Origin: Aphrocallistes beatrix
Lineage: Eukaryota > Porifera > Hexactinellida > Sceptrulophora > Aphrocallistidae
Length of the DNA stretch: 64,000 bases
Assembly (NCBI GenBank): GCA_963281255.1
Contig: OY725488.1
Span: forward strand, 10,327,524-10,391,523
Direction of reading: 5' to 3'
Below, in pieces: positions 1 through 49,533 of this stretch (position 1 is the first letter of the stretch; every line of letters starts with the position of its first letter). The notes beneath the pieces are model-generated. The model was not told the origin of the DNA. It was given only the letters and a program-made list of their open reading frames with translations, and made no database searches. A program made the translations under genes and the position numbers.

Positions 1-394
1 ATAAGTCTATAACTCGCGAGTCTTGAGTCTCATGACTCGAGTCATCGGAATTTGGGACGAGTCAGATGACTCGATGACTTGTGAAAAGCCCTGGATAATT
101 TCAAGGTTATTCTCATTCATTTTGTCATCAATATATACTATTAAAACTATCGTATCTCAACAATGTAGTACTCCCACATAGCCCATTATGATAAAATTAA
201 AATATAATAAGTATGTTCAATCCCGGGATCTTGGGATTAAACAAGATGCCAATCCCGAAATTCCGGAACTGTAAAAATACCCCGGGAGTGGAGTCCTTAT
301 TTCCAATGATTTAAATAAATGGAAAACAATCCTACTGAATACTGGCCTAATAATAACAAATTAAAATTTGTAAATTGTAGTATAAGTTCACATA
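1..394. repeat. Degenerate repeat fragments, no gene
   Basis: Bases 10-95 carry several copies of the short palindrome ACTCGAGTCA and its variants, and end in AAAAGCCCTGG, which resembles a hAT-type transposon terminus. Bases 220-290 carry CCCGGGA and AATCCCG motifs like those in the 600-bp hAT element at 30305. No flanking target duplication was found and no coding sequence is seen. Confidence 0.35.
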
Positions 395-2749
395 TCAGAT
401 GATGAGTGAACTTGAAAGTATCCCCTCGCCAACGTGAAGCGCCAGTTTCATCATCACGGGCTGGCATTCCTTTTCAAGGTCCTTCTGATGGAACTCGAAC
501 TCTTCCTTCGTCGCGGTCTGGATAGAGCAGAGCCAGGTGACTGCTTCCTTCACTTTGTCTAACACCTTCTTCTTATCCTCTTCCGTGATCTTGTTCTTCA
601 CTCTGTCATCCTCTACCGTGCTCTTGACTTGGTAAGCGTAGCTTTCGAGGGAATTCTTGGCTTGGATGCGTTCTCTCTGTGCTTCATCTTCACTTTTGAA
701 CTTCTCTGCCTCATCAACCATTCGCTTCATCTCAGCATCTGAGAGTCTGCTCTTGTCATTCTTGATGGTGATCTTCTCCATCTTATTGGTGCTCTTGTCC
801 ACAGCACTCACGTTCATGATTCCATTACCATCAACGTCGAAAGTCACGTCGATCTGTGGTACACCTCTGGGCGCAGGCGGGATTCCAGTCAGTTCGAATT
901 TTCCTAGCAAGTTATTGTCGGTAGTCAAGGCTCGTTCTCCTTCGAACACTTTTATAGGGAGGACTGACTGGTTGTCTGAGTAAGTGGTCAACGTGAGATG
1001 CTGCTTGGTGGGGATGGAGGTGTTACGCTTGATAACGGTGGTCATGACGCCGCCTGCAGTCTCAACTCCGAGTGAGAGCGGAGCTACGTCGATGAGAAGA
1101 ACGTCTTGTAACACTTCAGAGGTGTCTCCTCTCAAGATGGCAGCCTGGACAGCTGCGCCATAGGCTGCAGCCTCGTCGGGGTTGATACTTCTGTTCAATT
1201 CTTTCCCATTGAAAAAGTCCTGGAGAAGTTTCTGGATCTTAGGAATGCGACTGGAGCCACCTGCCAGCACGATATCTTGGATTTCACCCTTGCCTAGGCC
1301 CGCGTCTCTGAGGGCTTTCTCCACTGGCTCCAGCGTCCCTCTGAACAGGTCCTGGTTCAGCTCCTCGAAGCGTGCCCGGGTGATGCTAGTGTAGAAGTCG
1401 ATCCCTTCGAAAAGCGAGTCAATCTCGATGTTAGCTTGAGCGCTGTGCGAGAGAGTTCGTTTGGAGCGTTCGCAAGCCGTCCTGAGACGACTTAAAGCGC
1501 GCTTGTTGGTGAAGAGGTTCTTTTTGTTCTTGCGCTTGAACTCGCCTAAGAAATGGTTCACCATTCGATTGTCGAAGTCTTCTCCGCCCAAGTGGGTATC
1601 ACCAGCTATGCTCTTCACTTCGAAGATTCCCTCATCGATTGCAAGAACTGAGACGTTGAAAGTCCCGCCGCCCAGGTCGAAGATGAGCACGTTTCTCTCT
1701 CCACCGGTCTTCTTGTCCAGCCCGTAGGCGATAGCGGCTGCAGTAGGTGCGTTGATGATTCGAAGCACGTTCAGTCCAGAGATAATTCCGGCGTCTTTCG
1801 TAGCTTGTCGCTGCGCATCGTTGAAGTAAGCGGGAACTGTCAAAACCGCGTCCGAGACTGTCTTTCCGAGGTAGTCTTCCGCTGTCTCCTTCATCTTCAG
1901 CAGGACCATGCTGGAGATCTCCTCAGCGTAGAAGTTCCTCTTCTCGCCCCTGTACTCCACTTGGATCTTGGGCCGACCAGCATCGTTGATGACAGTGAAA
2001 GGCCAGTGCTTCATGTCGCATTGGACGATGGGGTCATCGTAGCGACGTCCGATGAGACGCTTCGCACCGAACACAGTGTTTGAAGGGTTCATGGCGACCT
2101 GGTTCTTGGCTGCGTCTCCGATCAGTCTCTCTGTGTCGTTGAAGGCTACGTAGCTGGGTGTGGTGCGGTTTCCTTGATCGTTTGCAATAATTTCCACTTT
2201 CCCATGCTGGAATATTCCCACACAAGAGTAGCAGGTACCGAGATCAATGCCGACTGCTGACATATTCCCATTCTTAGACTTGGTCGCTATACCTGATGGA
2301 AGATAGAGTTGAGTGTATCCACAACGACACATTCTATTTATACAATCTTTTAATTCATTCACTCTCCACGTTAACTTCACATTAGGAATATCAATGTCCA
2401 TTTCTCTCTTCGGACTTTCTATTGCTTCAGAAAGTTCAGAAAAATGTGTCTCAGTTGGATTGAACTTTCGAAGAATTCCATCAATCTTAAATTCTAATTC
2501 TCGAATGTGCTTTTGAGTTTCAATTATCTTCTTTTCTACTCCAGCATTCACTTCGCACAAAATATTCTCCAATTCTCCTATTATTGATATTTCTTTCTTT
2601 TCGATAAGATTTCTCATTTCTTTGCAGACTATTCTTACTTCCGACTTCTTTCTTTCAATCATTTCTCTAAACGAGTTCACTTTATTCTGGAGTTTGTCAC
2701 TCACTTCGAATAAACTAGCAGGTACAGATCCTGGATCTGCTGTTGCCAT
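395..2749 (-). CDS. Chimeric protein: NHL-family coiled-coil N-terminus fused to HSP70
   Basis: One uninterrupted 784-residue frame. Residues 1-about 145 match the N-termini of the NHL proteins at 4777 and 11280: the MATADPGS start, a coiled coil, the DIPNVKL-WRV segment and the CRC motif. About 13 residues of a first NHL repeat remain (QLY-PSGIAT). At residue 163 an HSP70 begins ([10 protein letters not shown]) and runs through the ATPase domain, the substrate-binding domain ([11 protein letters not shown]) and most of the lid. P-loop-like DLGT, catalytic Lys (residue 230, K71 in bovine Hsc70) and IFDLGGGT are present. Asp206 of Hsc70 is Asn here (residue 365), and Asp69 is Gly (residue 228). 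The tail ends in LSSSLII without the cytosolic EEVD motif. The HSP70 part is intronless and clearly more GC-rich than the N-terminal part, as expected for a retrocopy. The start ATG and 5' flank are those of the NHL paralogues, so the chimera probably uses their promoter. Confidence 0.9.
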
Positions 2750-3371
2750 TATAGACTTGCTATTATTTTATTTGAGAACAGTTCAGTTATACAAAAGTAT
2801 ATTTTATTCAGAATATTAAATTAAATTAATTTAAATACATTAGTAATAACATCTCATTGAAATACTATACTCTTTCATAGGACTATAGTTTGTGAAATCT
2901 TATATATTAAAACGCTAGGAATTTTTGCTTATCTGGATTGATTGAAGAATTGGGAAAGTCGTAGAGATAAGAAAATTGAAAATTGCAGATATTGACTCTT
3001 TGTGTAAACTAAAACAATGTTGTTAACTATCATTAAAATATACTGAAATTGAATAAAATGTAGCGATTTTTGGAAGAGTATAATCTAAAAAGTTAATGTC
3101 ATTCCCAAATAAATAACAGTCATCATGTTAACGTGATATATTCAAATCACAGAGGATGATTAGTAATGTGAGTTCTTTCGAATGCTTGGGATTTTTTAGA
3201 CTTTACTACACTTCGGTAGCTTCTTTCGTATGAATTAATTTCAGTTGCATTTTGTCTGAACTTCAACTACAGATTGACTGGACTCGATACTCACAAGAAT
3301 CATTAGCTATGTGATGAGTAAATCTTGAAAATCGTGTTAAAAGACAGTTTAGAGGGTCAATATATGCCTAA
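2750..3371. other. 5' flank of the chimera, AT-rich, otherwise featureless
   Basis: The first 60 bases upstream of the ATG (TATAGACTTGCTATTATTT and beyond) match the same positions before the NHL genes at 6042 and 12512, so the 5' UTR or promoter is shared by the three paralogues. Beyond that I see no gene, RNA or repeat. Confidence 0.5.
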
Positions 3372-12755: not shown

Positions 12756-14096
12756 CTAACATCTGCAGATACTGTTATGGATTGCAATGCTGAGAAATCC
12801 AGCTAGCGTGATTCCACAGGAATCAGCAATACTCACCACGCCCATCGAGAACTCCACTCTCTTACTCTCGATCTCGTTACGCACACGGTAGAAGGCATTC
12901 GCATAGGTTGCTCCTCCTAGCAACCCTTCGAACAGTATGACACAGAACGTGATTAGGATGAATGGAATGAACATGAACTCTGCTTCTAGGTAGAACAGAA
13001 CGAAGATGGCTGCTTGCAAGAAGGACATCAGCCATAGGTATTTGATTCTGAAGAAGATGACACTTGAACGGGAAACGAATACACCGAATTGGTACAGAAA
13101 CTGATAGACCCTGTACTGTGTGTTTTGGTCTATGCAGGCATTCTTGTAGTAGAGCAGCTCGAATAGTCCTTGAGTGATCATGTACTCGAACACGTAGACT
13201 ATAAATAGCGGACACATGTAACGCAGTAGATATCGGATGAATAGGGTGCGTACTAGGAATTGAGTAATATTCTCTTTCCATGACTTCTCTTGCTTGGTAG
13301 AAGATATATCTTCGCTTGGATCAGCAAATACAGCCTCCTCTTCTTCTGGATCATAAACTTCGTCATCATTAATTAAACGCTCTTCGTTTACAGTCTGTTC
13401 CAACTCTTTTCGTCTGTAGATTTGTGGTAGTTTTATTTTGAGAAGTGTGAGCTGTGGAATGAATAGAAGACCCCAGAATGCAATCCCCATAATGAACGGA
13501 ACTACTACCATGAGAAAGATCGCAGTCCTGGGAGATAGGAAAAAAGTTAGAATGAGGTAGGATAATGCTCCAGATATTCCAGCTGCTCCTGTTCCACTAG
13601 ACCAGGCCGCAACCTCGCTTTTACTATATATCGCAGTCAGACTGAGGAATGTAATCTCTCCAAGTCCCTCCCCAATACTGGCAAACACGACTCCTAACAG
13701 TATCAGTCCAAGCTGGTAGGAGGAAGCGATGATAAGGAGACTTGCTAGATTAGAAATAATGCACACTGACACTCTAATGTGATAGGAAATGTAGTCCAAG
13801 CACCAGGAGAGAGTTATCTTCACTACCAGACTCGGGATAATGCTTGCTAGGAGAATGACACCTGTGGAAAGTCTGTTACATTTGCGCCCTGAATCGGCGT
13901 CATAGCACACTGCTTTGGTAGAGTTTAAATGATTGGAGTTGTTATTGCTGGGACGTGCGGAGTCGTCCAGAAGATCATAAGCCGCACTCAGTATGAGAAA
14001 GTAGGCGTAGCTGCTGATGAGGCCAATTATCCAGAATCCGATTATTGACAGCTTCTTTGCAATATTGATTTGTTTGCTCGTAGGCGCGAGTTGCAT
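12756..14096 (-). CDS. CLN3: CLN3 (battenin) lysosomal membrane protein, copy 1
   Basis: A 446-residue multi-pass membrane protein from the ATG at 14096 (MQLAPTSKQ), which aligns with MEPAPTNKQ of copy 2. An in-frame ATG at 14138 would add 14 residues. CLN3 signatures run throughout: IGFWIIGLISSYAYFLILSA, LGVVFASIGEGLGEITFLSL, AWSSGTGAAGISGALSYLI, FEYMITQGLFELLYY, YRVYQFLYQFGVFVSRSS and EGLLGGATYANAF. The charged loop (about residues 240-275) is the least conserved region, as in the family. Vertebrate CLN3 lies in late endosomes and lysosomes and is needed for lysosomal efflux of glycerophosphodiesters. The length matches human CLN3 (438). The C-terminus is SICRC, not a CaaX box. It is divergently paired with a paralogue at 15568. 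Confidence 0.9.
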   Translation of the reverse strand: MQLAPTSKQINIAKKLSIIGFWIIGLISSYAYFLILSAAYDLLDDSARPSNNNSNHLNSTKAVCYDADSGRKCNRLSTGVILLASIIPSLVVKITLSWCLDYISYHIRVSVCIISNLASLLIIASSYQLGLILLGVVFASIGEGLGEITFLSLTAIYSKSEVAAWSSGTGAAGISGALSYLILTFFLSPRTAIFLMVVVPFIMGIAFWGLLFIPQLTLLKIKLPQIYRRKELEQTVNEERLINDDEVYDPEEEEAVFADPSEDISSTKQEKSWKENITQFLVRTLFIRYLLRYMCPLFIVYVFEYMITQGLFELLYYKNACIDQNTQYRVYQFLYQFGVFVSRSSVIFFRIKYLWLMSFLQAAIFVLFYLEAEFMFIPFILITFCVILFEGLLGGATYANAFYRVRNEIESKRVEFSMGVVSIADSCGITLAGFLSIAIHNSICRC

Positions 14097-15567
14097 TTTC
14101 AAATCTAATGAGTCAATGACAAAAGTTGTCTTAATCATAAAGCACTAGCTACTCTGCTCGTTTCGAAATGAATGCTTTGGCTGATCTAAATGAGTATGAT
14201 AAACTGTTTTGAATTTGACAGAATTACAAAGCACTTACAAGTGCATATAATTGCTTATTGTCAAAGGCTAAATGGTCAAGTAATTATGATATTTCCATCC
14301 AGGGAAGTAGGAAGGGGGCGGGTGCGATCCCAACCCCACGATCCAGAGCAGAAAATGCTGCCACCAAAAATACTATAATTCGGACGGGGGAGTTAAAGGT
14401 TTCCCCAATTTATGTGGTGTTTGAACATTAAAACACCATAACTCGCAAAAACCTCGATGAGGGGCTTTGGTGAAAGCTGAGACAATTCTGCGTCGATTGA
14501 AGAAAATCAGGATAGCATGTAGCTCGCTGAGTTATGCTCTACAAAAGATAAGGGGTTGGAAATTCTGCAAAAGATCGATTTGCAAGTTATTCACAAGAAT
14601 CACAATTTTGGTATCCTAAAAGCTCACTTTAAGCGCTTCTGGGGTTTTTGACACCTCGCTTCCTCTTACCAGTCCAAGCTGGAGGTATATATTTCCTTAC
14701 CCCTCAGCAGTGGCATAGCCACTGTTGAGTGGTAAGGAAATATTACAATAATAATTACAGATTTCCGATTAAATAAAGAACTGTATATGTAGATTCCGCA
14801 CGTAGTACGAAGTAATAGTACTTGTACAATTAGTTCAAATCGAAAGTTTCAAGATTATACAACCAGGTGTGATCTCTGTTTCAGGGCGCCAAAACGAAAG
14901 CGCGCTCACTTTGTAAAACACGAAGTGGAGATTAGTGTGCGCTTAAAAACAATTTTGAAACTATTGAAAGCTGTCGTCTGAATTAACTGTATGTACCCTA
15001 ATATTCATTGTTGCAGAATTTTGAGTGGAATTACATCTTTGAAGTAAAGGTGAAATTAATTCCAGTTCTTCTAAATCAATTATTGCCTCTATGTTACAGC
15101 TTGCTGAGAATAACTGTATAATAAACTCGATAACTGATTTCGGATAACAGTATTCTAAACCTAATTAGATAATCACATGAATCAGATACGCAGATGTCTT
15201 TATGAATATCAATAGATGTTATAGAATGGAATAAACATTAGTCTCTTAGAGTAATAGCATGATTCAAACTCGCACATTTATATCTGCATACAAGATAACC
15301 TCAACATAAGAACACAAGAATGCACGATGGAAATATGGGAATCACTTGACTGCTAACCTTTGAACAATTATCAGGGATATGTACTTATTAATACTTTATA
15401 GTTCTATTATATAAACACAAACTTATTAAACTAATTTGATATATTAGCTATAGCTACCATTTAGATCCAACCAAAACATTCACTTTGAATAGCGAGTAGC
15501 AGGAATAGGCACTACTTGTAAGTAAGTATATAATAATTAAGACAAGGTTTGGTCATTGTATTAGAAA
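14097..15567. other. Intergenic region between divergent CLN3 genes
   Basis: About 1.5 kb separate the two start codons and presumably hold both promoters. Apart from the hairpin at 14689-14743 I recognise no bounded element. The stretch 14280-14680 is less AT-rich and looks like old repeat DNA. Confidence 0.5.
14689..14743. repeat. Inverted repeat, 26-bp arms, 3-bp spacer
   Basis: ATATTTCCTTAC and on to CAGTGGC pairs with its complement at 14718-14743, with two mismatches around the spacer ATA. It could form a hairpin or be a small palindromic transposon relic. No target duplication was confirmed. Confidence 0.7.
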
Positions 15568-16905
15568 ATGGAACCCGCACCCACCAACAAACAGGTCGCT
15601 TTTGCGAAGAGACTGTCTCTTATCGGATTCTGGATAATAGGCATCGTGAACAATTACACCTACGTTGTAATCCTGAGTGCAGCTTATGATCTTCTGGACG
15701 ACTCAACAATTCCTAGCAACTCTACAATGCCCAGCAACTCTACCAACCTGATGTGTTATGACGCTGCTTCAGGGCGCGAATGTAACGCTGTTTCCACAGG
15801 TGTCATTCTCCTAGCCAACATTATCCCGACTTTAATTGTGAAGACAACTCTCTCCTGGTGCTTGGACTACATTTCCTATCACATTAGAGTGGCAGTATGC
15901 ATTATTTCTAACCTAGCAAGTCTCCTTATCCTCGCTACTTCTTACCAGATAGGACTGATACTGTTAGGAGTCGTGTTCGCTAGTATTGAAGCTGGGCTTG
16001 GAGAAGTCACATTCCTCAGTCTGACTGCGATGTACAGTAAAAGCGAGGTCGCGGCCTGGTCTAGTGGAACAGGAGCAGCTGGAATAGCTGGATCACTCTC
16101 CTACCTCATTCTAACTTTTTTCCTATCTCCCAGGACTGCGATCTTTCTCATGGTAGTAGTCCCGTTCATAATGGGGATCGCATTCTGGGGGTTTCTATTC
16201 ATTCCACAGCTCACACTTCTTAAAAAAAAACTACCACAAATCTACAGACGAAAGGAGTTGGAACGTACTGTGAGCGAAGAGCATTTAATCAAAGATGACG
16301 AGGATTATGACCCAGACAAAGGGGAAGATGGATTGGCTAGGCCAAGCGAAGATATATCTTTTGTCAATCAAAAGAAGACATGGAAAGAGAATATTACTCA
16401 ATTCCTAGTACGAACCTTATTCATTCGGAAGCTACTGCGTTACATGTGTCCTTTATTTCTTGTCTACGTGTTCGAGTACATGATCAATCAAGGACTATTC
16501 GAGCTGCTCTACTACAAGAATGCCTGCATAGACCAAAACATGCAGTACAGGGTATATCAGTTTCTGTACCAATTCGGTGTATTCGTTTCCCGTTCAAGTG
16601 TCATCTTCTTCAGAATCAAATACCTATGGCTGATGTCCTTCTTGCAAGCAGCCATCTTCGTTCTGTTCTACCTGGAAGCAGAGTTCATGTTCATTCCATT
16701 CATCCTAATCACGTTCTGTGTCATACTGTTCGAAGGGTTGCTAGGAGGAGCAACCTATGCGAATGCCTTCTACCGTGTGCGTAACGAGATCGAGAGTAAG
16801 AGAGTGGAGTTCTCGATGGGCGTGGTGAGTATTGCTGATTCCTTTGGAATCACGCTAGCTGCATTTCTCAGCATTGCAATCCATAACAGTATCTGCAGAT
16901 GTTAG
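15568..16905 (+). CDS. CLN3: CLN3 (battenin) lysosomal membrane protein, copy 2
   Basis: A 445-residue frame with the same family signatures as copy 1 (IGFWIIGIVNNYTYVVILSA, GLGEVTFLSLTAMYS, FEYMINQGLFELLYY, EGLLGGATYANAF) and the same C-terminal SICRC. From about 16530 to the stop and roughly 20 bases beyond, the DNA is almost identical to copy 1. The N-terminal third and the cytoplasmic loop (about residues 225-275) differ much more. That suggests a duplication with later gene conversion of the 3' half. The function is inferred as for copy 1. The two copies may differ in expression, because their upstream DNA is not shared. Confidence 0.9.
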   Translation: MEPAPTNKQVAFAKRLSLIGFWIIGIVNNYTYVVILSAAYDLLDDSTIPSNSTMPSNSTNLMCYDAASGRECNAVSTGVILLANIIPTLIVKTTLSWCLDYISYHIRVAVCIISNLASLLILATSYQIGLILLGVVFASIEAGLGEVTFLSLTAMYSKSEVAAWSSGTGAAGIAGSLSYLILTFFLSPRTAIFLMVVVPFIMGIAFWGFLFIPQLTLLKKKLPQIYRRKELERTVSEEHLIKDDEDYDPDKGEDGLARPSEDISFVNQKKTWKENITQFLVRTLFIRKLLRYMCPLFLVYVFEYMINQGLFELLYYKNACIDQNMQYRVYQFLYQFGVFVSRSSVIFFRIKYLWLMSFLQAAIFVLFYLEAEFMFIPFILITFCVILFEGLLGGATYANAFYRVRNEIESKRVEFSMGVVSIADSFGITLAAFLSIAIHNSICRC

Positions 16906-17659: not shown

Positions 17660-20600
17660 CTAAACCAGCACATCCTCCTCAGTTAGATCTGCCCAATGCT
17701 CCACATCCGGGTTGTATGTGTAACCGTAATGGTGAACAAATTCAAAGCGGAAATAATAGAACACCCATTGCCAGTAGTTATTATCGGCCGCATCTTCGCC
17801 AAGGATTTTCCATGAGGCGAAATGCGGATTGATTCGTTTGTAATCTGTGTATTTGAATCTCTGGTTATTATAGACGATAGTGTGATCAGTATTCATGCAG
17901 TGGGTGCACTCTATAATCGAGAATGTGTTCGAAGTTTCGTGGAAATACCCAACTAACCCCTTGGGTCGATGTAGTGACCCGCAATAGTGGCGGTGACCTT
18001 CTGAGGACATGAGACAGGGCTCTTTGCAGAAGGGACAGAGAGACTGGCAGGTGACAAGGAGCTTGTGAGGGATCGCGTGTTGGTGTATGAAGCATCATTG
18101 ATAGTTGTATGGATCAATCCCAGCCAACCGAATCGACTAGACATGTGGTCGAATGATCGGGTGAAGAACTCTACGAAGTCTTCCTCATGGTCCACAGGAT
18201 TCTGATATACGTCTAGAATATCAAAGTCACTTCTTCTCAGCTCTTTGGAGTATGATTTGATTTTTTCATAGAAGATAGGTTTCCAACTAGATTTCGAAGT
18301 CTTGATAAAAGACTTCAAATCAGCAATGTAAGACTGCTTCAGTTTATAAATGCTGGGATCTAAAATGCTAGCTTTAATTTCCTTTTGTACTTCTTTATCT
18401 TGGCAGTAGATTTTAAATTTAGTTTCGATCCAATTCCGAATGAAATTGATGGGATCGTGAATGTATGCGATGTATTGATCGAAATCCTTTTTGATTGCCA
18501 ACTCTCTCAGAATTCTGAGCTGAAGAGAACTTCTCCTTTTGAAGGTATCAAGGTTTCTAGGATCGTTCTGGAAATGATGTATGATATCCGTTAGCAATTC
18601 AGATTCCAAATAATTGACCATTTTCGCGAATACAATTTCGGCTAAGGCCCGTGCGCACGATAGGTTAGTCTGTGTACCTTGACACAGCTGAATGAAAACA
18701 GGCTTCAGCTCTATCCTGAGATTTAAGAGTTGAGCAGTTGCGTTGGTGTCACAATGAAAATCTCTCTGTAACATTTTGAGGTGTGTAACACCTTTACAGC
18801 AAATGTAGAAAGAAAATTCGTACATGAATAACTCTGTCAACACGATTTGTTGAACAGTGTCGCTTTTTTCTTTATCATTGAACTCCGCAACTTGGCTACA
18901 GACAATATTAATCAGATGAGAGAAGGACTGGTTTGAATAGGGAACAGATTTGTCAAGGGAGTATAAAAATTCTTGGCACAATGATGAAACGATTTGAATA
19001 AGTTGACAAATTTTTTCTTGGGAATTATCTGGTGTCTCTGTCAAGCCTTCTAAATTATGGCGTAGCGAGTAGTCGTAGAAATCAGTGAAGGTACAGTTTG
19101 GAGAAATGAATCCTTCATTATCAGGAATTAATATTTTGAAATGACTCGATCCGAAGTGAAAGCCTAACAATCTTATATCATCAAACTTTTCACGATCTCC
19201 TACAAGGAGTTCTCTTGATTCTTTTGATATTTCAAAGTTAGCGAGAACTGAGTTAAATCTGAATTCTGCCTGAAGATCTGATTGTATATCAACAGGCAAA
19301 GAGTCGCAGTTCTTACTCAAAGTAGAATCCCACTTACTCCAATGACGATCAAACAGCATCTCTAGTTGCAAGTTGGGCTTAGTCCAGTCGCCCTTCTCAT
19401 TGTGTCTAATTATATCTTCTTTAGCTTGTTTAAGGATTACTTCACGCATCTGATTGGGATCTGCTTTGATTTTGAGTACGTCTTTCCTTTGCTTGTAATG
19501 CAATTCAATTTGTTCTTGAAGTGATTCTTGTTTTTGATATCTTGTTGAGTCAAAATACTTCTTTGCATCTTTCTCTCGTTCCTGCTGAATTTCTTTATAC
19601 TCACTCTTCTGAAACAAATATTCCACAGTTCTCTCCTCCAATTTACCAGCCGCATTCCTACACCACAGTCTAATCAAATCCTTACTCATATCATAAACTG
19701 AATCGATGTCTTCCAACACCGCATTTGAAATATAAACTATTTTTCTATTTAAATGATTAAGAGTATCGGCATCATACTGGTATCTCCATTTAGTCAACTT
19801 ATCATCAAATTCGAAAGCTGCATAACATTCTAAGATGGTTTTGTATTTCAAGATAAATTTTTGGCTCAGCACTGAATTCCAAATATCTTTCAATTTTTGT
19901 GTCCACGTAGCTATGCTTTGAAAGTGTATGTTCCTACAGTACTCCTGTGTAATCTTCCGTTTAAGAGTTTCACAGCGAGCGCTGTAGTCAGACGATAGCA
20001 CGGACATAGGGGAATCTGAACTATACAGACCAGGGATTAAATAAGTATCAAGGTGCACGTTGTAGTCAATGACGTCAGTAAACTTTGTGAAGTTTGGGAA
20101 GCCTTCAAGCTTAGCTGCGTGAACCGTTGTATAGTCAAGGAACTTAATGAGCTGTTCTTTCCCTGCAGAGAGGTTTTCACTCGTGTTTACATTCTGGTGT
20201 ACGAATATGCACCTGACTGGCTTAGCAGATGCCAATTGAATTTTCATAAGCGCTAGGATTGCAATTTGGAGAATCTGTTTAAACTTAGCCTGATCCTCAC
20301 CGAAAAGATTGATAATGACCAAGTCACTAATTCCTGTAACGAATGTGGCCAACTCGTTATCATGGGAGGCCGGGAGGATCCCCGTTAACTCGGGAGCTCC
20401 AAATCCCTCAGTATCCAGCACTACGAGATAATGATAGCCCAATTTCTCACTCGCTGACTTGTCCACTGGGATTATCTGCATGAAGATACCTCTAGTGCAA
20501 CGCCCTGATTTGAAAGGAAATTGTGAGCTGAACATTGTGTTGAGTAACGTTGACTTTCCACTGCTCTGAGTTCCTAAAATTCCGATAACAAAAATACGTT

Positions 20601-22424
20601 TATCTTCACCTACCTCTCCACTCAGCTCCTTCAACACACTAGACACCCAACAGAGTGGAATATGAGTAACAGACCCGTCCAATATCTCAAAGCTGTGGCC
20701 AGAGAGAATCAGTTTAACATCTGAAGGGTTGAAATCAAGTTTTTGGATAATTTCATTTTGCTTTAATCTCGCGTTCACGAAAATTTCATACACCTGCCCT
20801 AATTCCCGCATGATGTGCTCGATGCCGAGTGTTTTTGCCATCGGTGATGCGCTCTCTCTCCAATCCAGCATTTTCCTGCTTCGATTCGTCGTTATCTGTC
20901 GACCTCCTATTGAGTGGGTACAGATACTTCAAGGACAACCGATCCAAGCAAGTTTGCAGGATCCTCCACAGGTACACCATGTCGTTACCCACATTATGAG
21001 CACAAATCGTTCTGAGAATTGTGAGGAAGAATTGGCAAGGTCCTGGCGGATTGATCAGGTAGCCAATCTGGTTGTTGCGGGCCAGGTTCAGAGTTCCTCT
21101 TAACTTCGTCAAATGGGCCTCTCTGCACTCGATACCCATTTTATAGCCCTTCAAAGCGAACCACTCACGATCTGCACTCGCCCACTTCTGCCATTGCTCA
21201 AGTTGTAAAGGCAATAACTCCGATTTCAGAAGATACAGATTGTCCAATAGCTCTTCATTCTCCCGAAGCACGTCACTGAACAGCTGATCGATCTTCTCCT
21301 GGAAAGGAACAGTCATTCTAGTCACATCTGTGTCCTCGTCGAAATCAATATTGTGTTTAAGTGCCACTTCTTTGCACATATCAAGCGACATCTTAGGAAG
21401 TTCACATCTCTTGAGAATCCCGTTCATACTCGCAATGACGTGTTCTGGAATGTTCGCACGATTGGAATACTTGCTGATGAGGTAGAATGTTTTATTCTCT
21501 TGAATGGTCAGGGGACGAAATCTCTTTAACTTGGGGGACTTTCGGTCCATAATTACCAAACATACCTTATGTCTATACGATTCAAGAATTTTTTCGACCT
21601 CATTCAACTCACTCTCAGTTGCTTCTTCAAGAGAAATAAAAATATAGACAAGAGTTGAGATATCGAGAATGAAATCTAACTGTTTTTTGAATGAAAAAGC
21701 GTTACCTCTCAAATTCAGGAAGAGAAGTGGTTCATTATAACATTCCATTTTGCCTTCGAGGTTGGCAGGCAAGAACCAATTAATCTCAACTAAACCTTTG
21801 AAATGTACTTTAGGGGTGGAATTCCCTTTTGTTTCATTGTGAAAGAAACAATTAGGTATTCCCAGTAAGCTATTCAAAGTCTTTTTTATAACTACTTGTA
21901 CACATCCAAGAGCGAATGAATGAGATGTAGTAGATCTTCTCTGTGAAAATAGGAATTATCTTAGTCTGGTTCAATGTTTTATCAATTTTATAGCTCTGAG
22001 TGAAGATGGAATGGTAGGAAAGGGAGAAGAGGGTAGGGTTGCCAGTACGGGGGTTGGTAACAATCAAAGGTAAGGAGAGCTGACATTTTGCTACATGAGA
22101 AAGAAAAATCTGTCTGAATATGTGGTCGCATTCTAAAAACAGTTTCAAGAATATATCCATTGTGTTAATCTCATCATCTTCGTCTCCATCTTCATATGTC
22201 GAGATTACAGAGGACATATTACGACTGTCTGGGTCCAAGCCTAAGATGCATTCCAGCATTCTCTCTGACAAAGCATCGATCTTTCTGTCAAGTGGAGATT
22301 CACCTTCTTTCCCCTCATAAGTTTCAGTCAAACTTTCGTTCGTATCAAGCAGTTTTATTCTTGTACATTGAAAGAAACTGAGTTTTCGACACGGATTCAA
22401 ATGTTCCGCAGGGCTTGTAGCCAT
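17660..22424 (-). pseudogene. VLIG-type very large inducible GTPase homologue, broken by three frameshifts
   Basis: Coding sequence runs in four successive frames: 22424-about 21885, 21877-about 20875, about 20871-18060, and about 18060-17660. The first frame has LDPDSRN and FLKLFLECDHIFRQ. The second continues from KTLNSLLGIPNCFF. The third holds the G domain: P-loop GTQSSGKST (about 20550), DTEGFGAPEL (Walker B/G3) and FVHQNVNTSE (G4 region). The last has a cysteine/histidine cluster, CPFCKEPC with HRHYC. Reconnecting the first three frames needs one base fewer at A-runs (T-runs at 21882-21887 and 20871-20874 on the plus strand). The last needs an opposite shift near 18040-18075. Summed length is about 1580 codons, versus about 2400 in mammalian GVIN proteins. 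With no other stops in 4.7 kb, either decay is very recent or the shifts are assembly errors. VLIG GTPases are interferon-induced in vertebrates; the role here is unknown. Confidence 0.8.
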
Positions 22425-23100: not shown

Positions 23101-26100
23101 CTAAGAAAATGCATAGTCCTGGCACTGAATGGCCTCCAGTACCTTCTTCTTGAGTGTGGCATAGTTCTTGTAACGTGGCAACCGCATGGTACGCCCACAA
23201 GTGGAAGCAGTTGGGAGATTTTCATATTCCCCTTCTAACACGTACACTGAGAGTACGGCAGAGTCTGATGCTAACAGAGCAGATCCTGTAGCGAAGTAGA
23301 GGAGTTGCTGTCTCTGTGAATTCTTCATATGTCTGATCAGTCTGTAGAAGTTGCTGGTGAATGCAACTCTGTCCTCCTCTGTGATTCCCAACGAGAACTG
23401 AATGGCTGTCTGTCTCTTCAGTCGGGAGTAGGAGACCACCGCACTTCCACCGGTTAGGATTAGCTGCAAGTCTTCGGCTGTTAGATCGCGAATGAAGTTG
23501 GCAGGAATCACAGTCACGAAGCCTTTCCGTAACTCCTCCAGTTCTTCCTTCAGACATCCGACCATCAAGTACATGGAGTAGAGCCGCACATACTCCTGCA
23601 CATTATCAGGCGTAACCGGGATGGATTTCCCGCCTGGCTTCAACTCACAGATGGTGTCATTGACTGCCACTTCGAAGTTTAGCATGTAAATGGCTTGGAA
23701 GGATTCTTGTGACATGTTTTCTTCTTGGCAGTGTTCTAGCATGCGGCGGAGACCTTCGTACAAGTCTGCATTGTAGAAGCCTACGTCATGCCACGAGATC
23801 TGTCTGCCCAGGATGTACTTGAGCACGTGGCGTGTCAGGAGGAAGGGGATTGGCTGTTTGTAGTAGATAGCAATGCCGAAGAATTTCCCGATGGCCTACA
23901 GGGATACGTACTCATTTAAGGATGGGATATTTTCTAGGAAGGAGAACCTATTTTAGATCGGTAGCTATTCTGTAATTGTATTCGCAAGGCCAAACTTCTG
24001 AAATAATGAAAGTTTGCAATTTTATGTTCGTGTTTTCAGTTCCAATAAAGTTGAAAAACTTTCACATAATATGCATCATAATGGGGTAGGCCTAATTTCC
24101 TGGAAGGGACGGGGCATCCCGGAGAATCTAGATACCTAATTTCCAGGAGACATCTTAAGTCCGGAAATTAAGTATCTGAACTCGTCCCATTCCGGAGATT
24201 AGGAAATTAGGTACGTAGATTCTTACGGGATGATATCGTCCCGGAAATTAGGCATGCCCATCATAATGGACATATAAACAGATGTATTGGGATACTATCT
24301 AGGAACGGAATAGTTCCCATACATAGAAGCTAATTAAAAATTAAATCATCGGGAACTCCGCTTAATCGGGACAAATATCAAGACTCCACAAGTCCCGATT
24401 AAGTCGACGGATCCCCACTCACCCTGTAGTAAGAGAGTCTCTGCACGAAGAGAGGATTGGAGTTGGTGAGCAGAGTGGGTGCGGGTGCGTAGAAGGTGGC
24501 CTGCTCCGGGAGCTTACCTGGCTCGTGGAACAGACAAGTGGTCCTGGGTGGCATCTTGTCTGAGGATTTCAACGCATTGGCCAGGGCAGTGTAGAACCCA
24601 GCGACCACTCCCTCCCCACCCCCCGCCTCCCCTTCGAAGTTCACATTCAGTGACTGTTGCCAGGCCCACTCAAGCGAGAATAGTTTGGTGAGACTGTCCT
24701 TCAGCAGCTCCGACCTATCTATCGTGAGGGAGAAATGCCCTCCGTAGTAGCCCGTGTTCTTGATGGAGTTGAGGAGGGTGTGGAACCGTGCCATGCGTCC
24801 TGCGAATCCGCCCCGACTGAACAGGAAGTTCTCCGGTTCCGTCCCTGGTCCAGATTGGGCGAACAAGTCAGAGAGCGCCTCTATGACTCCGCTCCATCTG
24901 CTCAATATCTCTTTAGGGGTCAGCTTAGAGGGATGGAGAGCTGGACTCTCCTCCAGCTGGGAGTAAGTCAGGGGGGAGGTGTGAAGGGGGGCAGGGGGAT
25001 CACAGGGGGTAGTGGCAGCTGTGTCGGTGGGGGCGCAGAACAGAGTGGAGGCGGACGCTTCCGGTTTCAGGAGGTGAGGTTTCTGAGCTAGCGGGATGTC
25101 CCGCTGTAGTGGGGTCTTGAAGTCCGGCTTGCCAGACAGCTGGTGCCTGTGCTTGGAGCCGATAAGGGACGGCTGTCTCAGGAAGAAGACCTGCTCCTGT
25201 CCGTTCGGGAGGTCAGACGAGGGAACTGGGGTCGAGGATTCAGATTGGGAGGATTGCCGCTCGAATAGAGCGCACTTGCTCCAGTTATTCGCGAAGTATA
25301 GCTGCGCGTCTACAATGTATGCGACGTGTTCGTAGGAGGACAGGTCCATGACAGGGAGGGTGTCTCCGCTCTCTAGCTGGTGGAGGGAGAGGAGGTAGTC
25401 CGTGTACTGCTTGGGGTCAGAGCGGGGCATCTGCTGGCCGCTCCTGTTCGGCTGCTCGTACAGATCATCGATGGGTGCTGGCTGTCGGTAGCGAGCTTCC
25501 AAATTAAACCGGCCTCCGATCTCGATTTGGTTCTGCGCCAGGTCTAGCAGTCGTGCGGCCCAGCTGAATACCGGATCCAAGATTTCCGGGACACAGTCCA
25601 GGATTCGGCGCTCGGTGGCTATTGGCAGGGACAGCACCGGCAAATCCAGTCCCGAGGACTCTGTCTTGTCATGTTCAGGGAGACAGAGCTTAACGGCGGA
25701 CTTTAAGAAACGAGAGAAGCTACGCGCGAGGATATTTGCGCCATGGCTGGAGCTGGAGTTGAGTCCTGTCTCTTGGGTGTGGTAGAATGCCATGCCACGT
25801 GACTGTGTGTTCTGCTCGGCCGTGTCCGTCAGCCAGGAGACACGGGCACTAGTGCCAGTGGACCTGGGAGCAGCAGGAGCGATACGGAAGCCTTCTTCTT
25901 CCTCTTCTGCTTCGGACCCGTCTTCTTCCCCTTCCTCCGTCTGAGGGACATCGGCCCGATCTGTGGGATCGGACTCGGATCCGGTTTCATCCGATTCGGA
26001 CGCACTCTCTAAAGCGTTCCCTTCACCCCAGTAGTCCGACCTCTCCCTGCTATCTTTGCCCCCTGCCCCCTGAGACGAATCCATCGCCCCCGATTCAGCC

Positions 26101-29100
26101 CCTGACAGACACAGTTTGATCCCTTCAGACGGAAGCTGGGGCAGTTTGGAGGCAGGCTTAGACAGGCGCTGGACACTCTCGCAGTGGAAATGCCACTCCA
26201 ACCCCTTCACACCTTGAGCATTGTGGTTGAATAGACTGATACCGTTCAGGTTCGGCGGATCGAAATCTTTGGGGTACTGCTTCGGGTTCCCGACAAGAAT
26301 GGGCCAGAATATCCCCCGAGCTGCGGCGATCATCTCCCAGACGGAGAGACTCCGGAAGCAAGAGAGAACTCGGTAGATCCGGTACTGGACTCTAATAACC
26401 CGGTTCTCTACCGGCAACGTTAGGTTAGGATTCCGATTGGGGATATCGGTTGCTATGGGTGACTCTGGTATGAGGAACTGTTTCTGAGAGACGAGGGAAC
26501 GGTTGTAAAGGCGGACCAAGGATTGGATGAACCGCCGGACAACCAAAATGGCACGCGCGGACTCCGCATCTAATCCCTCACCCGGGTCTGCGCTCATGAA
26601 TGCGGACGGGAGTTTGTCGGGGTCAATTTCTTTTAGTTTAGAGAACAGAGTGCGTAGAAACGTGACGAGTATCGCGTCAGGAGTGTCCACTAGCAGTGAG
26701 AATGTGAATGAGTCTCTATCCGCGTGACTTGAGGCTACCCCGCCTCCAGGATTGAGGATAGCAGAACTCACCACGTCCCAAGACCCAGCTACAATCTCTA
26801 GGATGGAGGGAACAGGGACTCTCTCCCCTTTCTCCTCAGCCCCGCCTACCCCGTCTGACTCCTTCGAATTTGGACTGCTACTTAGCGGAAGGCCGAGCGT
26901 AGGTCCTCCAAACCTGATTGGATTGAACAATCCGGAATGCATACTACTCTGTGAGGACCCAGAGAGAAGCGTCGTTCCGAAACAGAGCTTGAATTCGTCC
27001 GACTCTTCCCTCTCTCCCACCTTGCTCATATCCTGGAAGTACTGCACCAGCAGTTTATCGTGTAGAAGAGAGGAGAGAATGTTCTCATGCCCTGGAACCA
27101 TGGGACAGACATCTATCAACCGCCTAAACAACGACACACGTGTCAACTCAGTATCGATCACAGCACGGGAGTACTTAGCGTATCGCTTCTTCAACTCAGT
27201 CCGCCAATCAGAAGACCTGGTCCCCTCCCCGTGGTACGTCTGTATCTCAATGGGTAGGTTGGTCAGGTTGTTGAACGAGGTCCCCGTCATCAGAATGGCA
27301 CCATTCAACTCACACTGCGCACGGCGCATCTCCCAAGCACTGCTGAAGACCACCAGCTGTCTCTGTGACAGGTGCTCAGAGGTGACGCTACGGTAGAGTT
27401 CGTTAGGTTTCACGTAGAAAGTGTCCGTGTAGGTCCGTCGATCGGGTGGCGACTCTCGGGCGGTGGGACACGGGAGGACTTTCGTCTCTTCTGAGAGAGG
27501 CGAGGCGTCAGGTGCGATGGTTTCACACCTGTACGCAGAGGGGTACCGTCTCTGGAAGAGGGAGAGTAGGACTTTGGGGTTCGGTGTCAAGCGCAGACAC
27601 TGTGTCTGTATCAGGAGCGTGCGGAGTCCGAACTGTCCGTAGGGCAGAGCTGCGTTAAAAAGTAGAGCTTCCAAAGGCGAGGTTCCATCCGTGCTGGATC
27701 TGGCGACGGCGTTCTGGTAGAGATGGGACTGCTGGCGCAGCGGCGCTCTCTCTACGAACTCCAGAATCAGCTCCGCAGCGGCTAGGTCCTGGGAGAGCAG
27801 GGCCAGGAGGAAGGGGGTGCGACCTGAAGCGTCCGTCTGCATGAGCAGGGTCTGGACGAGGTGGGAGAGGGAGGGGAGGGAGAGGAGGTAGGACAATGTT
27901 TGGGTCTGTCCGGACTCAAATTCTCCTGAACGGATATTGTACGAGTTCTTACTGTAATGACTCCAACGATCCTCTTCAAAACAAAACTTATATTTCTTCT
28001 TTTTCTTGGAAGTTCGTTTCCGATCAGCGGAAAGGATGCAAGCGTGCAGGATGTTCTTGTTCCCACAAGATCTCTCTTCCAGATCAGCTGACTTAACCGG
28101 AACTAACACCTTCTCCACAGGTTCCACTTTAGCCCTCTTCACAGCTGGCAGAGGCTCCTCAGTACTGGAATCTGATTGGCTGATACAAGCGTCCATGAAC
28201 TGTTTCGCTCTGTCGAAGTCATCAACATAGGAAATGACCCCTCTCTTCCTGGGATGACACAGCACAAGATGGAAGTCCCTCTGTCTGTGCGAGATGAGGG
28301 ACTGGGAGAGAGACTCGAATGCTAGAGGGAGATGCCAGAAAGGAGGACGCAGTCGGTAGAAGGACTGGATGGGTCTGATGTACCCGTGGGCGTCTAGGAG
28401 CACGGGGGTATTGGTTAGAGGGGAAGCGGCGAACTTTGATTGGGCACTGAGTCCAGCTGTAGCAGCTGGGGTGCTCTCCTGCTCGATTGTAGCGTTCGTC
28501 CAGCTAGTCTTGCTCCTGTGGGAGCCAGCGTACACCGTGGGAGGGTCGGGGAGTTTAGGGGAGGAGAGGGAGTTGAGGATGAACGCCTGTCCGTCTGCCA
28601 CTCTCTCCAGTAGCAGGAGAGGTCCCTGGGAGTGACACGAGATGGCTAAGCACCTGTGAGAGGTAAACATTGAGTTAGAAAATGTTCCGTGAATCGGTCC
28701 GGTTATTATTAAGTATCTATCATCTCCTTTATTTACCAACAAGCGCGCTTCGCTTGCTTGCGCTGCGGGTACCTGGGGTCACAGTGATTAATTATAAGGG
28801 AGATAACATCTCTAAATAGGTCTGTCTTACTGTTATAATCGATATCACTCGAAAAATCATCAAATTTTTTGATGACGTCATAACAGTGATGAGTAATCAT
28901 TTTTTTGATGGGAGTTGTATCATATGTGAGATATATTAATATACACATTCTATTAAAATTTCAGCCTTCTATCACTTAAAATGGCTGAGTTATGGTCGAA
29001 AAACTGTAATTTTTAGTGTGCTTCCTATATTATTATATTGGATCATAGCATTCTATACATAAGGCAATGGCAGTCACTAAAAAAACAGTACCATGGATTG

Positions 29101-36499: not shown

Positions 36500-37537
36500 A
36501 TGGAAATTATATATGGCATTGAAATGTGCATTATCGTCATATTATGCTTCTCATTCTGTTTATTAGCATCAGTTGTCCTCATCTACTATGTTAGGAGAAG
36601 GTATCTTCTTCATCTTGATATTAAATCTATCTCTCAGGATGAGTTAATGTTGCAACCGTTTCAGAACCATCGTAAAAACCTAAGAATTAAAGCACTCATA
36701 TCCAACTTCATCATTGTTATAGTACTAGTAGAGATTGTCTTAAGCCTGTCATTTTCAATTAATTATATGCTTTCGTTGGAGGAATACTCAAAAATCAATA
36801 ATAGAAATTTCTTTAGAGCTTTATCTGGATTCATTTGTATTTCTTGGTACCTGGCCTCAATATTGTATTATTGCCATCTTCCAATACTATCGCTGCTAAT
36901 GAAGGTTCTCTGGTTGATATATCTCCATTCTCCTTACAAATACACTATCATTAGATGGACATGGTGCATAGTATTCAGATGTGTTTTGCTTTCCATTGCT
37001 TTCTATCTTCAAAATTTGAGCCAGTTTCCCATTGGTTGGTATGATATCATAAATTTCACAATTCCAATAATATATATATTTGTAAACACATCTGATATTA
37101 TTATCTATCTGGTGTATGCTCGTCGTCTGTACATTCAGCTCAAGAGTAGAGAGAAAGAAGCTAGATGGTTTAAAGACAGAACTGAGTATCGCATTGCTAG
37201 GTCTCAGCGTCTCCATTACAAAATAGCAACCATTCTAGTAGCAATAGCGATGTGTACCATCACAATTACTCAAAATTCGATAAGTTTTGAGTATTGTAGT
37301 AATTTAGCACATTTCTTTGGATATAAAATAGAGTACAAGGTATATGAATACTACCAACATTTCTGTAATTTCGGATTCATCTTATTTATGTTACTGGTTA
37401 ACCTGAACTACCTGTACATAGTTAGTATGATGGTGTTTAAGTACTGCAAACAGAAGAGACAGCAAACCAATGTTAATGACAAGATCAAACCTATTGTTAA
37501 GAACTACCATGATACTCTCTACTATACAAGATGTTGA
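36500..37537 (+). CDS. Putative seven-transmembrane receptor, family member 1
   Basis: A 345-residue intronless frame that I cannot place in a known family. Seven hydrophobic segments are visible, at about residues 8-31, 66-88, 107-140, 150-171, 183-208, 240-260 and 288-314. Basic clusters follow segments 1 (RRRYLLH), 3 (SPYKYTIIR), 5 (ARRLYIQLKSREKEARWFK) and 7 (KYCKQKRQQ). By the positive-inside rule this puts the N-terminus outside, the topology of a GPCR. There is no signal peptide, no DRY motif after segment 3, and only a weak NPxxY counterpart (NLNYLYIV) in segment 7. It is tandem with two other intact genes and several relics, typical of a fast-evolving sensory or immune receptor family. 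That role is inference. Confidence 0.8.
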   Translation: MEIIYGIEMCIIVILCFSFCLLASVVLIYYVRRRYLLHLDIKSISQDELMLQPFQNHRKNLRIKALISNFIIVIVLVEIVLSLSFSINYMLSLEEYSKINNRNFFRALSGFICISWYLASILYYCHLPILSLLMKVLWLIYLHSPYKYTIIRWTWCIVFRCVLLSIAFYLQNLSQFPIGWYDIINFTIPIIYIFVNTSDIIIYLVYARRLYIQLKSREKEARWFKDRTEYRIARSQRLHYKIATILVAIAMCTITITQNSISFEYCSNLAHFFGYKIEYKVYEYYQHFCNFGFILFMLLVNLNYLYIVSMMVFKYCKQKRQQTNVNDKIKPIVKNYHDTLYYTRC

Positions 37538-39752: not shown

Positions 39753-39824
39753 CAGTGCATGGTGACATTAGTGCATTCCGCTATTGGATTACATTTAGAA
39801 GTGAACTGAACTCTTCTATTGATC

Positions 39825-40577
39825 ATGGATATTCTAAATGTCTCTGTAGAACGCATTCTCATCGTTAGCATCATACTTTCTCTCTCATTCTGTTTGTTAG
39901 CATCAGTTGTCCTCATCTACTATGTTAGGAGAAGGTATCTTCTTCATTTTGATATTAAATCTATCTCTCAGGATGAGTTAATGTTGCAATCGTTTCAGAA
40001 CAATCGTGAAAACCTAAGAATTAAAGCCCTCATATCCAACTTCATCATTGTTATAGTCCTAGTGGAGATTTTCTATAGTTTGTTATTTTCGGTTCATGGT
40101 ATATTTTTATTAGTGCACTGGCACTACATTCTAGATTTTTCTCCGTCCAGTTTTATTTATAATCACTTGAACGTAATATTGTGCCTTTGCCAACCACTTC
40201 CAATACTATCGTTGCTACTGAATGTTCTCTGGTTGATATATCTCAATTCTCCTTACAAGTACACTATAATTAGGTGGACATGGTACATAGTAATTAGATG
40301 CGGGATACTTGTAGTTATAATATTTTGCTATCTCCAAAATACGAACCAGGTTATCAATGGTTGGTATGATATCACATGTTCCACAATTGAAGCAATATAT
40401 ATATTGGTAAACACAGCTGATTTTATCATCTATCTGGTCTACGCTCGTCGCCTGTACATTCAGCTCAAGAGTGGAGAGAAAGAAGCTAGATGGTTTAAAG
40501 ACAGAGAAATCAAGATTTTTAAAACCTTTTTATTTTTCGTAGGGATAATTCAATTCAATTTCGAATATAAATTCTGA
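39825..40577 (+). pseudogene. Truncated seven-transmembrane receptor, family copy 2
   Basis: The frame from ATG 39825 (MDILNVSVERIL) matches the family through transmembrane segment 5 and the following basic loop (SGEKEARWFKDR). After residue about 227 the homology ends abruptly, and an unrelated tail of about 20 residues leads to a stop, so segments 6 and 7 are lost. The promoter looks intact, so a truncated five-segment protein could still be made, but I treat it as a pseudogene. Confidence 0.75.
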
Positions 40578-48513: not shown

Positions 48514-49533
48514 ATGGAAATTCTAGTTGTCATTGAAATATGCATTATTATCACACTCTGTTTCTCATTCTGTTTGTTAGCATCAGTTGTCCTCATCTAC
48601 TATGTTAGGAGAAGGTATCTTCTCCATTTCGAGATCAAATCTATCTCTCAGGATGAGTTAATGTTGCAATCGTTTCAGAACCATCGTAAAAACCTAAGAA
48701 TTAAAGCTCTCATATCCAACTTCATCATTGTCATAGTCTTAGTGGAGATTGTCTATAGTTTGTCATTTTCAGTTTTCTCTGTGTTTTCATTAGTTGTCGA
48801 CAAATTTAATTGTCATCACATCAGACCAATGTTAAGATTCGAGAAGATTTTTCTTGACCTGAGCATAATATCATATCTCTGCCATCTTCCAATACTATCG
48901 TTGCTTCTGAAGGTCCTCTGGTTGATATATCTCCATTCTCCTTACAGATACACCATCATTAGATGGACATGGTACATAGTAATCAGATGTGTTTCGCTTC
49001 CCATTTTTTTAAATCTTATAAGTACGAGCCAGTATCTCAATGGTTGGTATGCTGAGTTTATACTGCCTCTAATATATACATTTATGATCACAGCTGATCT
49101 TAGCATTTATCTGGTGTATGCTCGTCGTCTGTATACACAGCTCAAGAGTAGAGAGAAAGAAGCTAGATGGTGTAAAGACAGAGCTGAGTATCGTACTGCT
49201 AGGTCTCTCCGTCTCCATTACATAATAGCCACTGTTATAGTAGCAATAGCGATGTGTACCATCACAATTAATATGAATTTCAACAATTTTGAACTTATTT
49301 CAAAAATTTTTGTTAGATATACTATAATGGACAAAGTATGTGAATACTACCAACATTTCTCTAATTTCGGATTAATCTTGTGCATAACACTACTTAACTT
49401 GAACTACCTGTATATAGTCAGTATGATGGTGTTCAAGCACTGCAAACAGAAGAGACAACTAACCAATGTTAATATCAAGATCAAACCTATTGTTAAGAAC
49501 TACCATGATACTCTCTACTATACAAGATGTTGA
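48514..49533 (+). CDS. Putative seven-transmembrane receptor, family member 3
   Basis: A 339-residue intronless frame homologous over its full length to the genes at 36500 and 54690. Conserved blocks are the first segment and loop (LLASVVLIYYVRRRYLLHF), KALISNFIIVIVLVEIV, CHLPILSLLLKVLWLIYLHS, the basic third loop (REKEARWCKDRAEYRTARS) and the tail (NLNYLYIVSMMVFKHC, IVKNYHDTLYYTRC). The extracellular stretches, especially between segments 2 and 3 (residues about 88-110) and 6 and 7, vary most, as expected if they contact ligands. The function is not known. Confidence 0.82.
   Translation: MEILVVIEICIIITLCFSFCLLASVVLIYYVRRRYLLHFEIKSISQDELMLQSFQNHRKNLRIKALISNFIIVIVLVEIVYSLSFSVFSVFSLVVDKFNCHHIRPMLRFEKIFLDLSIISYLCHLPILSLLLKVLWLIYLHSPYRYTIIRWTWYIVIRCVSLPIFLNLISTSQYLNGWYAEFILPLIYTFMITADLSIYLVYARRLYTQLKSREKEARWCKDRAEYRTARSLRLHYIIATVIVAIAMCTITINMNFNNFELISKIFVRYTIMDKVCEYYQHFSNFGLILCITLLNLNYLYIVSMMVFKHCKQKRQLTNVNIKIKPIVKNYHDTLYYTRC

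Follow-up and report, generated by a model that had tools for sequence, protein, structure and literature searches.

In Aphrocallistes beatrix, an NHL-family gene has lent its promoter region, start codon and coiled-coil to most of an HSP70 coding region. The hybrid lies at one edge of the window, by which we mean the whole 64,000-nt stretch analysed (G000:C1:10327524-10391523, within a searched genome of 100.5 Mb in 28 contigs), as a reverse-strand reading frame that begins with an ATG and carries the NHL-family front and the HSP70 together over 784 codons (Table 1). The in-frame fusion proposed in a preliminary description of this DNA is borne out by the length of this frame and by a Pfam HSP70 match (PF00012) spanning residues 165-768 (E=3.4e-240, profile positions 1-596 of 599). 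Its assignment of the first 145 or so residues to the local NHL family likewise held, since residues 1-143 match that family, and the jump in base composition it had seen at the junction was recovered as a rise in GC from 0.348 (2264-2749) to 0.516 (447-2263). The HSP70 is not, as had been thought, nearly whole: about 60 of 667 residues are gone from the C-terminus, including the terminal IDEVD, homology stops within the Gly/Met-rich tail, and the last residues are out of frame.

Table 1. Fusion copies, parts of the window copy (D) and its NHL-family neighbour; positions are those of the window unless preceded by C1.
Feature	Position	Strand	Remarks
Copy A	C1:10316190-10318521	-	broken
Copy B	C1:10319925-10322294	+	full frame, about 789 codons
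Copy C	C1:10323431-10325875	-	broken
Copy D (window copy)	395-2749	-	full frame, 784 codons
5' flank common to other NHL-family genes (proximal promoter/5'UTR)	2750..2901	-	homology to other NHL loci
NHL-family-derived N-terminus, residues 1-162	2264..2749	-	coiled-coil (to ~143) and start of first NHL repeat
Junction, 28 bases	2254..2281	-	NHL DNA ends AATAT; HSP70 from ATG at 2263-2261; equals C1:10329777-10329804
HSP70 in frame, 607 codons, residues 163-769	443..2263	-	nucleotide-binding domain, linker, substrate-binding domain, most of lid
HSP70 Gly/Met-rich tail remnant	419..442	-	out of frame after 13-bp deletion common to A, B and D
Non-HSP70 C-terminal codons and stop	395..418	-	EEVD absent
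3' flank common to the four copies	1..394	-	without NHL match, AATAAA or ATTAAA
Residue 173 (human T14)	2231..2233	-	Cys in all four copies
Residue 334 (human E175)	1748..1750	-	Ala in D
Residue 365 (human D206)	1655..1657	-	Asn in D
Intact NHL-family gene, 421 aa	4777..6042	-	neighbour; same family as N-terminus donor

Three further fusion copies (A, B and C) were uncovered by HSP70 searches to the left of D. The linker is complete in copy A, where homology to NHL DNA reaches ...AATAT and ends at the HSP70 ATG, in agreement with the earlier claim that the HSP70 begins at its own Met; the best NHL locus for the front of this copy (L027) is 84% identical to it over 305 bases. An HSP70 copy on contig C10 reads AAATATGACAG at the join position, so the joining may have been guided by a match of five bases, AATAT; the HSP70 gene on contig C3 reads AAACATGACAG there and would have less in common with the NHL end. 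A stretch of 72 bp of NHL linker is missing in B and D and kept in A and C. At the other end, copy C keeps the 13 tail bases deleted in the other three, but has a stop there. Compared with the closest intact HSP70, D shows no indel over the 605 codons compared and B only 3-bp indels; the N-terminus of D has a single 9-bp indel. Searches 3' of the HSP70 by blastn and tblastx (30 NHL loci) and by tblastn (two NHL proteins) found no NHL remainder, and the 3' flank of the fusions, with 25 matches in total, has nothing but short, dispersed pieces as counterparts outside the four copies.

The 28-base junction has exactly four genomic occurrences, one per copy, all within C1:10318047-10329804 (~12 kb), that of copy B being at C1:10320402-10320429. 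A genome-wide search allowing up to two mismatches returned no occurrence elsewhere, and the reversed sequence used as a control returned none. The copies occupy an array of ~14 kb on both strands of one contig, with no N in the 37.5 kb examined; their HSP70 parts are 97% (A), 94% (B) and 91% (C) identical to that of D, and the copies differ by about 3-8%. Copy A has suffered a 2-bp deletion, a stop and the loss of its N-terminus, and copy C a 2-bp insertion before the junction; this insertion falls within a brief run of TG and may reflect an error in sequencing. The copies are also mosaics: 35 sites split them as AD|BC, nine as AC|BD and three as AB|CD, and the N-termini of A and B share 294 identical bases, a mosaicism that probably arose through gene conversion.

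The preliminary description had allowed for the junction being an assembly chimera. Four similar copies in a 14-kb array do invite that thought, or that of uncollapsed haplotypes, as haplotype duplicates can mimic arrays. However, four diverged copies, with HSP70 differences of 3-8%, share the exact junction and lie on both strands of a contig devoid of N, so a chimera is ruled out for practical purposes; we rejected it, and hold any assembly or haplotype artefact to be extremely improbable. We are, conversely, highly confident that the fusion is real and inherited.

The closest intact HSP70 (C3:3179221-3181041, P; hereafter the C3 gene) is 91% identical to the fusion over query positions 2-1818. 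Its coding region is one open exon with no intron, and its protein ends in IDEVD. In a tree built on 571 of 605 codons and rooted on the HSP70s L003 and L007, the fusion clade is the sister of the C3 gene with 100% support. Omega on the branch leading to the fusions was 0.11, against 0.105 for other HSP70s (0.13 with the other topology, 0.26 in an 866-bp set that includes C10). A branch omega so like that of other HSP70s indicates that strong constraint acted during most of the divergence, whether in a lost or unfound donor or in the early fusion. The HSP70 at C10:795145 was rejected as the donor: it keeps a 5'UTR resemblance to the C3 gene and yet falls outside the fusion group in the 866-bp tree; the omega of the C10 copy (0.15) also makes it of no use as a neutral control. 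This C10 copy (L048, C10:795157-796012) is an HSP70 pseudogene with a 5-bp deletion, next to an N run.

The HSP70 part had been described as a retrocopy, which would have landed in an NHL gene. Its coding part is indeed intronless and the closest intact HSP70 sits on another contig, but missing introns prove nothing because that gene has an intronless coding region itself. The copied piece is coding only, starting at the ATG and ending inside the coding tail, and alignment disclosed neither UTR sequence nor poly(A) of the C3 gene in the fusions, nor an A-run at the 3' junction. By blastn (E<=0.01), the 3' flank of the C3 gene had no match in those of the fusions, and the sole match to its 1.5-kb 5' flank was a 56-59-bp piece ~1.4 kb above the ATG. 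This piece, 78-80% identical between the far C3 flank and the 5' flanks of B, C and D (window 2924-2979, reverse strand), is probably a dispersed repeat, and we take it to lie outside any UTR. We read the HSP70 part as a DNA-level piece of coding sequence, and consider a retrocopy improbable.

The donor of the front belongs to a large family. At least 135 N-terminal matches were scored among 150 of 193 candidates (some genes accounting for two of them), and members are mostly single open frames of ~430 aa; among the listed matches, only two frames exceed 500 aa, D (790) and B (795, C1:10319925), both of them HSP70 fusions. Very large clusters of coiled-coil/NHL genes occupy C1 9.49-10.48 Mb and C4 0.33-1.08 Mb, some of their members being truncated or carrying stops. 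The fusion N-terminus matches TRIM_CC at E=0.0053 (17.1 bits, cut-off 30) and scores better against Tektin (E=0.00062), also below cut-off; among 18 NHL members, 12 match TRIM_CC at E<=0.01, the best at 6.7e-6, again below cut-off. Pfam revealed no RING or B-box in two window NHL genes, the 18 NHL members or the fusion N-terminus. The closest solved relatives of the NHL propeller are TRIM71, TRIM2 and Thin, and only the start of its first repeat is left in the fusion. An AlphaFold model of the fusion (three sequences) was too poor to rely on, with a mean pLDDT of 39.8, a pTM of 0.26 and a long low-confidence N-terminal helix. The N-terminal coiled-coil would be expected to dimerise, and the HSP70 product to be coiled-coil-linked.

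The remainder of the window holds other gene families. Two single-ORF CLN3-type transporter genes lie inverted at 12756-14138 (reverse strand) and 15568-16905 (forward strand), with ~88% DNA identity and Pfam run on the first only. A URGCP-like large GTPase gene at 17953-21877 (reverse strand) comprises two overlapping ORFs in different frames (PF25683, PF25496), the split reflecting a frameshift, an intron or a broken gene. At 23101-28742 (reverse strand), a HECT ubiquitin-ligase domain (23101-23826) is preceded by an upstream 1447-aa ORF (24399-28742) without Pfam match. Four forward-strand ORFs (36500-37537, 39819-40577, 48514-49533 and 54690-55718) form one family of ~340 aa (252 aa for the second), with many hydrophobic stretches by eye and no Pfam match in the two scanned.

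The preliminary description placed a chaperone under the promoter of another family. An NHL-type 5' flank is supported: that of the fusion (query 240-821) is 76-82% identical to other NHL loci among the 40 of 1522 candidates scored, and the better matches extend some 90-150 bp upstream of the ATG, others starting nearer to it. We further scanned 600 bp upstream for three-unit heat-shock elements with 8 or 9 of the 9 positions matching, and with overlaps included in the count, in B, C and D (copy A, whose start is missing, was omitted). The scan yielded five elements in the C3 gene (two perfect) and eight in L003 (three perfect), and none within the 600 bp upstream of B, C, D, the two window NHL genes and the unfused HSP70 L007; the shuffled-sequence mean was 0.15-0.26. 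Expression of the fusion, if it is transcribed, would on this sequence evidence be independent of heat-shock factor.

The claim of a chaperone under another promoter is doubtful, with catalytic and pocket residues altered in every copy and a client-binding half that is near-neutral (below). Residues are given in human numbering after alignment to PDB HSPA1A (chain residues 6-610). D carries T14C, E175A, D206N and, in the substrate pocket, V438L; A carries T14C, K71S, E175A, D206N and pocket V438L; B carries T14C, T204N, F205L, D206S, R342H and pocket A406E and V438F; C carries T14C, K71N, E175A, G203E, F205L, D206S and pocket V438I. D206 and V438 are therefore altered in all four copies, and EEVD is absent throughout; every copy retains D10 and D199, with A406 preserved in A, C and D and the interdomain linker in D. 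The active site, which we take to comprise D10, K71, E175, D199 and D206, the last a catalytic residue, is incomplete in every copy, D keeping D10, K71 and D199, and B keeping K71 and E175. The PDB matches include a D206S mutant structure.

Several of these positions have been mutated in other HSP70s. According to PMC6511203, human HSP70 E175S is locked in the ADP-bound state without ATPase or refolding activity, and A406/V438 double mutants serve as substrate-binding domain mutants; PMC9691929 describes K71A Hsc70 as binding ATP without hydrolysing it. The equivalent of E175 in DnaK (E171) contacts K70 and supports force transmission, but is, according to PMC12406271, not absolutely essential for allostery. 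The canonical motifs DxGTT, EPxAA and GGxT, as given by PMC12692333, were compared at both GGxT sites: D reads DLGTC and APTAA, keeps GGGT and shows GGSS in place of the GGST of the C3 gene; all three motifs are missing from B; C fails the first two and has GGET and GGST. These residues suggest that E175A and D206N would damage the ATPase cycle of the D product, and that its client binding may be weak. Altered residues or a missing heat-shock element are not by themselves proof of lost function, because unfused L007 has such features too (N206, T406, I438, failing EPxAA). L007 (G000:C4:1890559-1892283), whose lid region is shortened by a 63-bp deletion, may thus be another altered HSP70.

We assessed selection on the fusion with omega models implemented in our own GY94 script. 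Because the copies are mosaics, a single tree is only an approximation for these estimates, so two topologies and tree-free pair counts are given. Omega was 0.105 in the background and 0.46 on the fusion branches, where omega=1 was rejected (2dlnL 31.2). With the B-D estimate of 0.52 below, this value speaks for a product having existed once the fusion had formed, the singleton test below being weaker. Single terminal fusion branches gave 0.36-0.60 (2dlnL 2.9-3.7 against 1), none reaching 5% alone; jointly they gave 0.56 (p=6e-4), and B with D 0.54 (p=0.026), the other topology yielding 0.48 and 0.49, respectively. Broken copy A (0.47) resembled the other fusion branches (0.46). The constraint was unevenly distributed, with omega at 0.34 in the nucleotide-binding domain (NBD; p=6e-10 against 1) and 0.78 in the substrate-binding domain (SBD; p=0.3), a difference of p=0.0038. 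Tree-free B-D counts gave 0.52 for the whole HSP70 (p=6e-4), 0.36 for the NBD and 1.08 for the SBD, the NBD differences (34.5 nonsynonymous to 33.5 synonymous) being enriched in synonymous ones (p=2e-5). Across the six copy pairs, omega ranged over 0.36-0.49 in the NBD and 0.64-1.08 in the SBD.

Singleton derived changes spoke less clearly. Omega was 0.70 over the four copies (61 nonsynonymous, 29 synonymous, p=0.074), 0.61 for B with D (p=0.13) and 0.44 for their NBD (p=0.088), and the four-copy totals revealed no contrast between NBD (0.70) and SBD (0.69), in a test that dropped variable codons and counted few changes (six in D). Sites at which one copy alone has its state numbered 4 in A, 8 in B, 19 in C (clustered) and 2 in D. 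In the fusion coiled-coil, omega was 0.63-0.65, indistinguishable from 1 and from the NHL background of 0.37 (pairs 0.58-1.25), and on the branch to the fusions it was 1.2-1.4. Under neutral simulation, the probabilities of a stop-free HSP70 frame were 0.13 for B, 0.135 for D since its split, 0.51 for the terminal branch of D and 0.04 for C. Fourfold-site divergence from the C3 gene was broadly even along the gene, with a low stretch at codons 241-300 (1/24 in D). With divergence so even, the contrast between NBD and SBD is not readily put down to conversion from that gene, and as a cause of the low omega such conversion was rejected on the evenness outside codons 241-300 and on the above counts of sites with a state peculiar to one copy. 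Collectively, these data support, without proving, past purifying selection on the ATPase domain, and the array, once established, probably yielded a product. Whether that product is, or recently was, under selection we judge to be evenly balanced.

Our best reading is that the product, if made, would not be a working chaperone but an HSP70 ATPase domain with impaired catalysis, linked by its coiled-coil and not heat-inducible. The sequence of events may have begun with one DNA-level join that brought a cytosolic-type HSP70 coding region, beginning with its ATG and reaching as far as the onset of the Gly/Met-rich tail, into an NHL gene of the C1 cluster, a single event being suggested by the junction that all copies share. 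Copying and partial inversion of the hybrid then gave the four-member array, with gene conversion suggested by the mosaic patterns. If transcribed, it would be driven by an NHL-type promoter without heat-shock factor, and would yield a coiled-coil-linked NBD with a damaged ATPase cycle, a drifting client-binding half and no EEVD. The likeliest use of such a product would be a non-folding one, its ATPase domain, where constraint is clearest, acting as a nucleotide-state-locked scaffold or decoy for J-proteins or exchange factors, tethered by the coiled-coil. The explanation as a whole, from fusion and array to NHL-type expression and a scaffold or decoy ATPase domain, has in our judgement about an even chance of being right. 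The scaffold or decoy role itself is possible and rather unlikely, and we are more doubtful still of its strongest form, a new HSP70 architecture of TRIM-like coiled-coil and NBD that selection keeps as a co-chaperone scaffold or decoy, non-inducible and altered in catalysis, its client-binding half decaying meanwhile.

The main rival sees here a dying chimera, a chance fusion that was duplicated locally, was once constrained and is now decaying without a useful product, its open frames being mere survivors. Two of the four copies are broken, every copy has lost D206 and V438 and adds further catalytic changes of its own, the C-terminal tail has gone, the coiled-coil omega is not below 1, and the singleton omega of 0.70 is not clearly under 1. 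This account nevertheless has to accommodate reading frames that stay open over 784 codons in D and about 789 in B, the synonymous enrichment of the B-D differences in the NBD (p=2e-5) and the unequal omega of NBD and SBD; we regard it as a serious contender that falls somewhat short of an even chance. The reading of the preliminary description, in which a functional HSP70 chaperone has come under an NHL-type promoter and oligomerises through its coiled-coil, draws on the nearly full-length Pfam match, on the K71, D10, D199, A406 and interdomain linker that D keeps and on its NHL-type 5' flank. E175A, D206N, T14C and V438L in this same copy, the loss of EEVD and an SBD omega near 1 make it very unlikely.

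Set beside the canonical HSPA1A and HSPA8, D retains the order of NBD, linker, SBD and lid as well as K71, D10 and D199. It differs in its 162 extra N-terminal residues, in the alteration of T14, E175, D206 and V438, in the absence of EEVD and in an upstream region where no heat-shock element was found. In function, the closest parallel is HSPA13 (STCH), an HSP70 whose NBD matters without a client-binding half: PMC9691929 reports that it lacks an SBD, is an active ATPase, and affects protein import more as an ATPase mutant than as wild type. HSPA13 is an ER protein in which the SBD is absent, whereas the fusion still encodes a drifting SBD and adds a coiled-coil. With the TRIM-NHL proteins (TRIM2, TRIM3, TRIM71, Brat and Thin), the parent NHL family shares a TRIM_CC-like N-terminus (below cut-off) and the NHL propeller; unlike them, the NHL genes scanned have no RING or B-box that we could find, and the propeller is gone from the fusion.

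Chimeric genes as such are familiar, and those formed by partial duplication resemble the present case in building a new frame out of pieces of two unrelated genes and then being amplified locally. Few proteins are as conserved as HSP70, which is not known as a partner in coiled-coil gene fusions. We found no precedent for an HSP70/NHL or HSP70/TRIM-like fusion in open PMC text; HSP70 variants with partial domains are known (PMC12692333). The junction, close relatives of both halves and four differently decayed copies share one genome, so that the path by which a fusion changes its function or dies becomes readable and testable. The fusion would also offer a natural example of an HSP70 that has escaped heat-shock control and whose two halves apparently differ in the selection acting on them; if the scaffold or decoy architecture is true, it would be an HSP70 caught en route to an ATPase-core-only protein.
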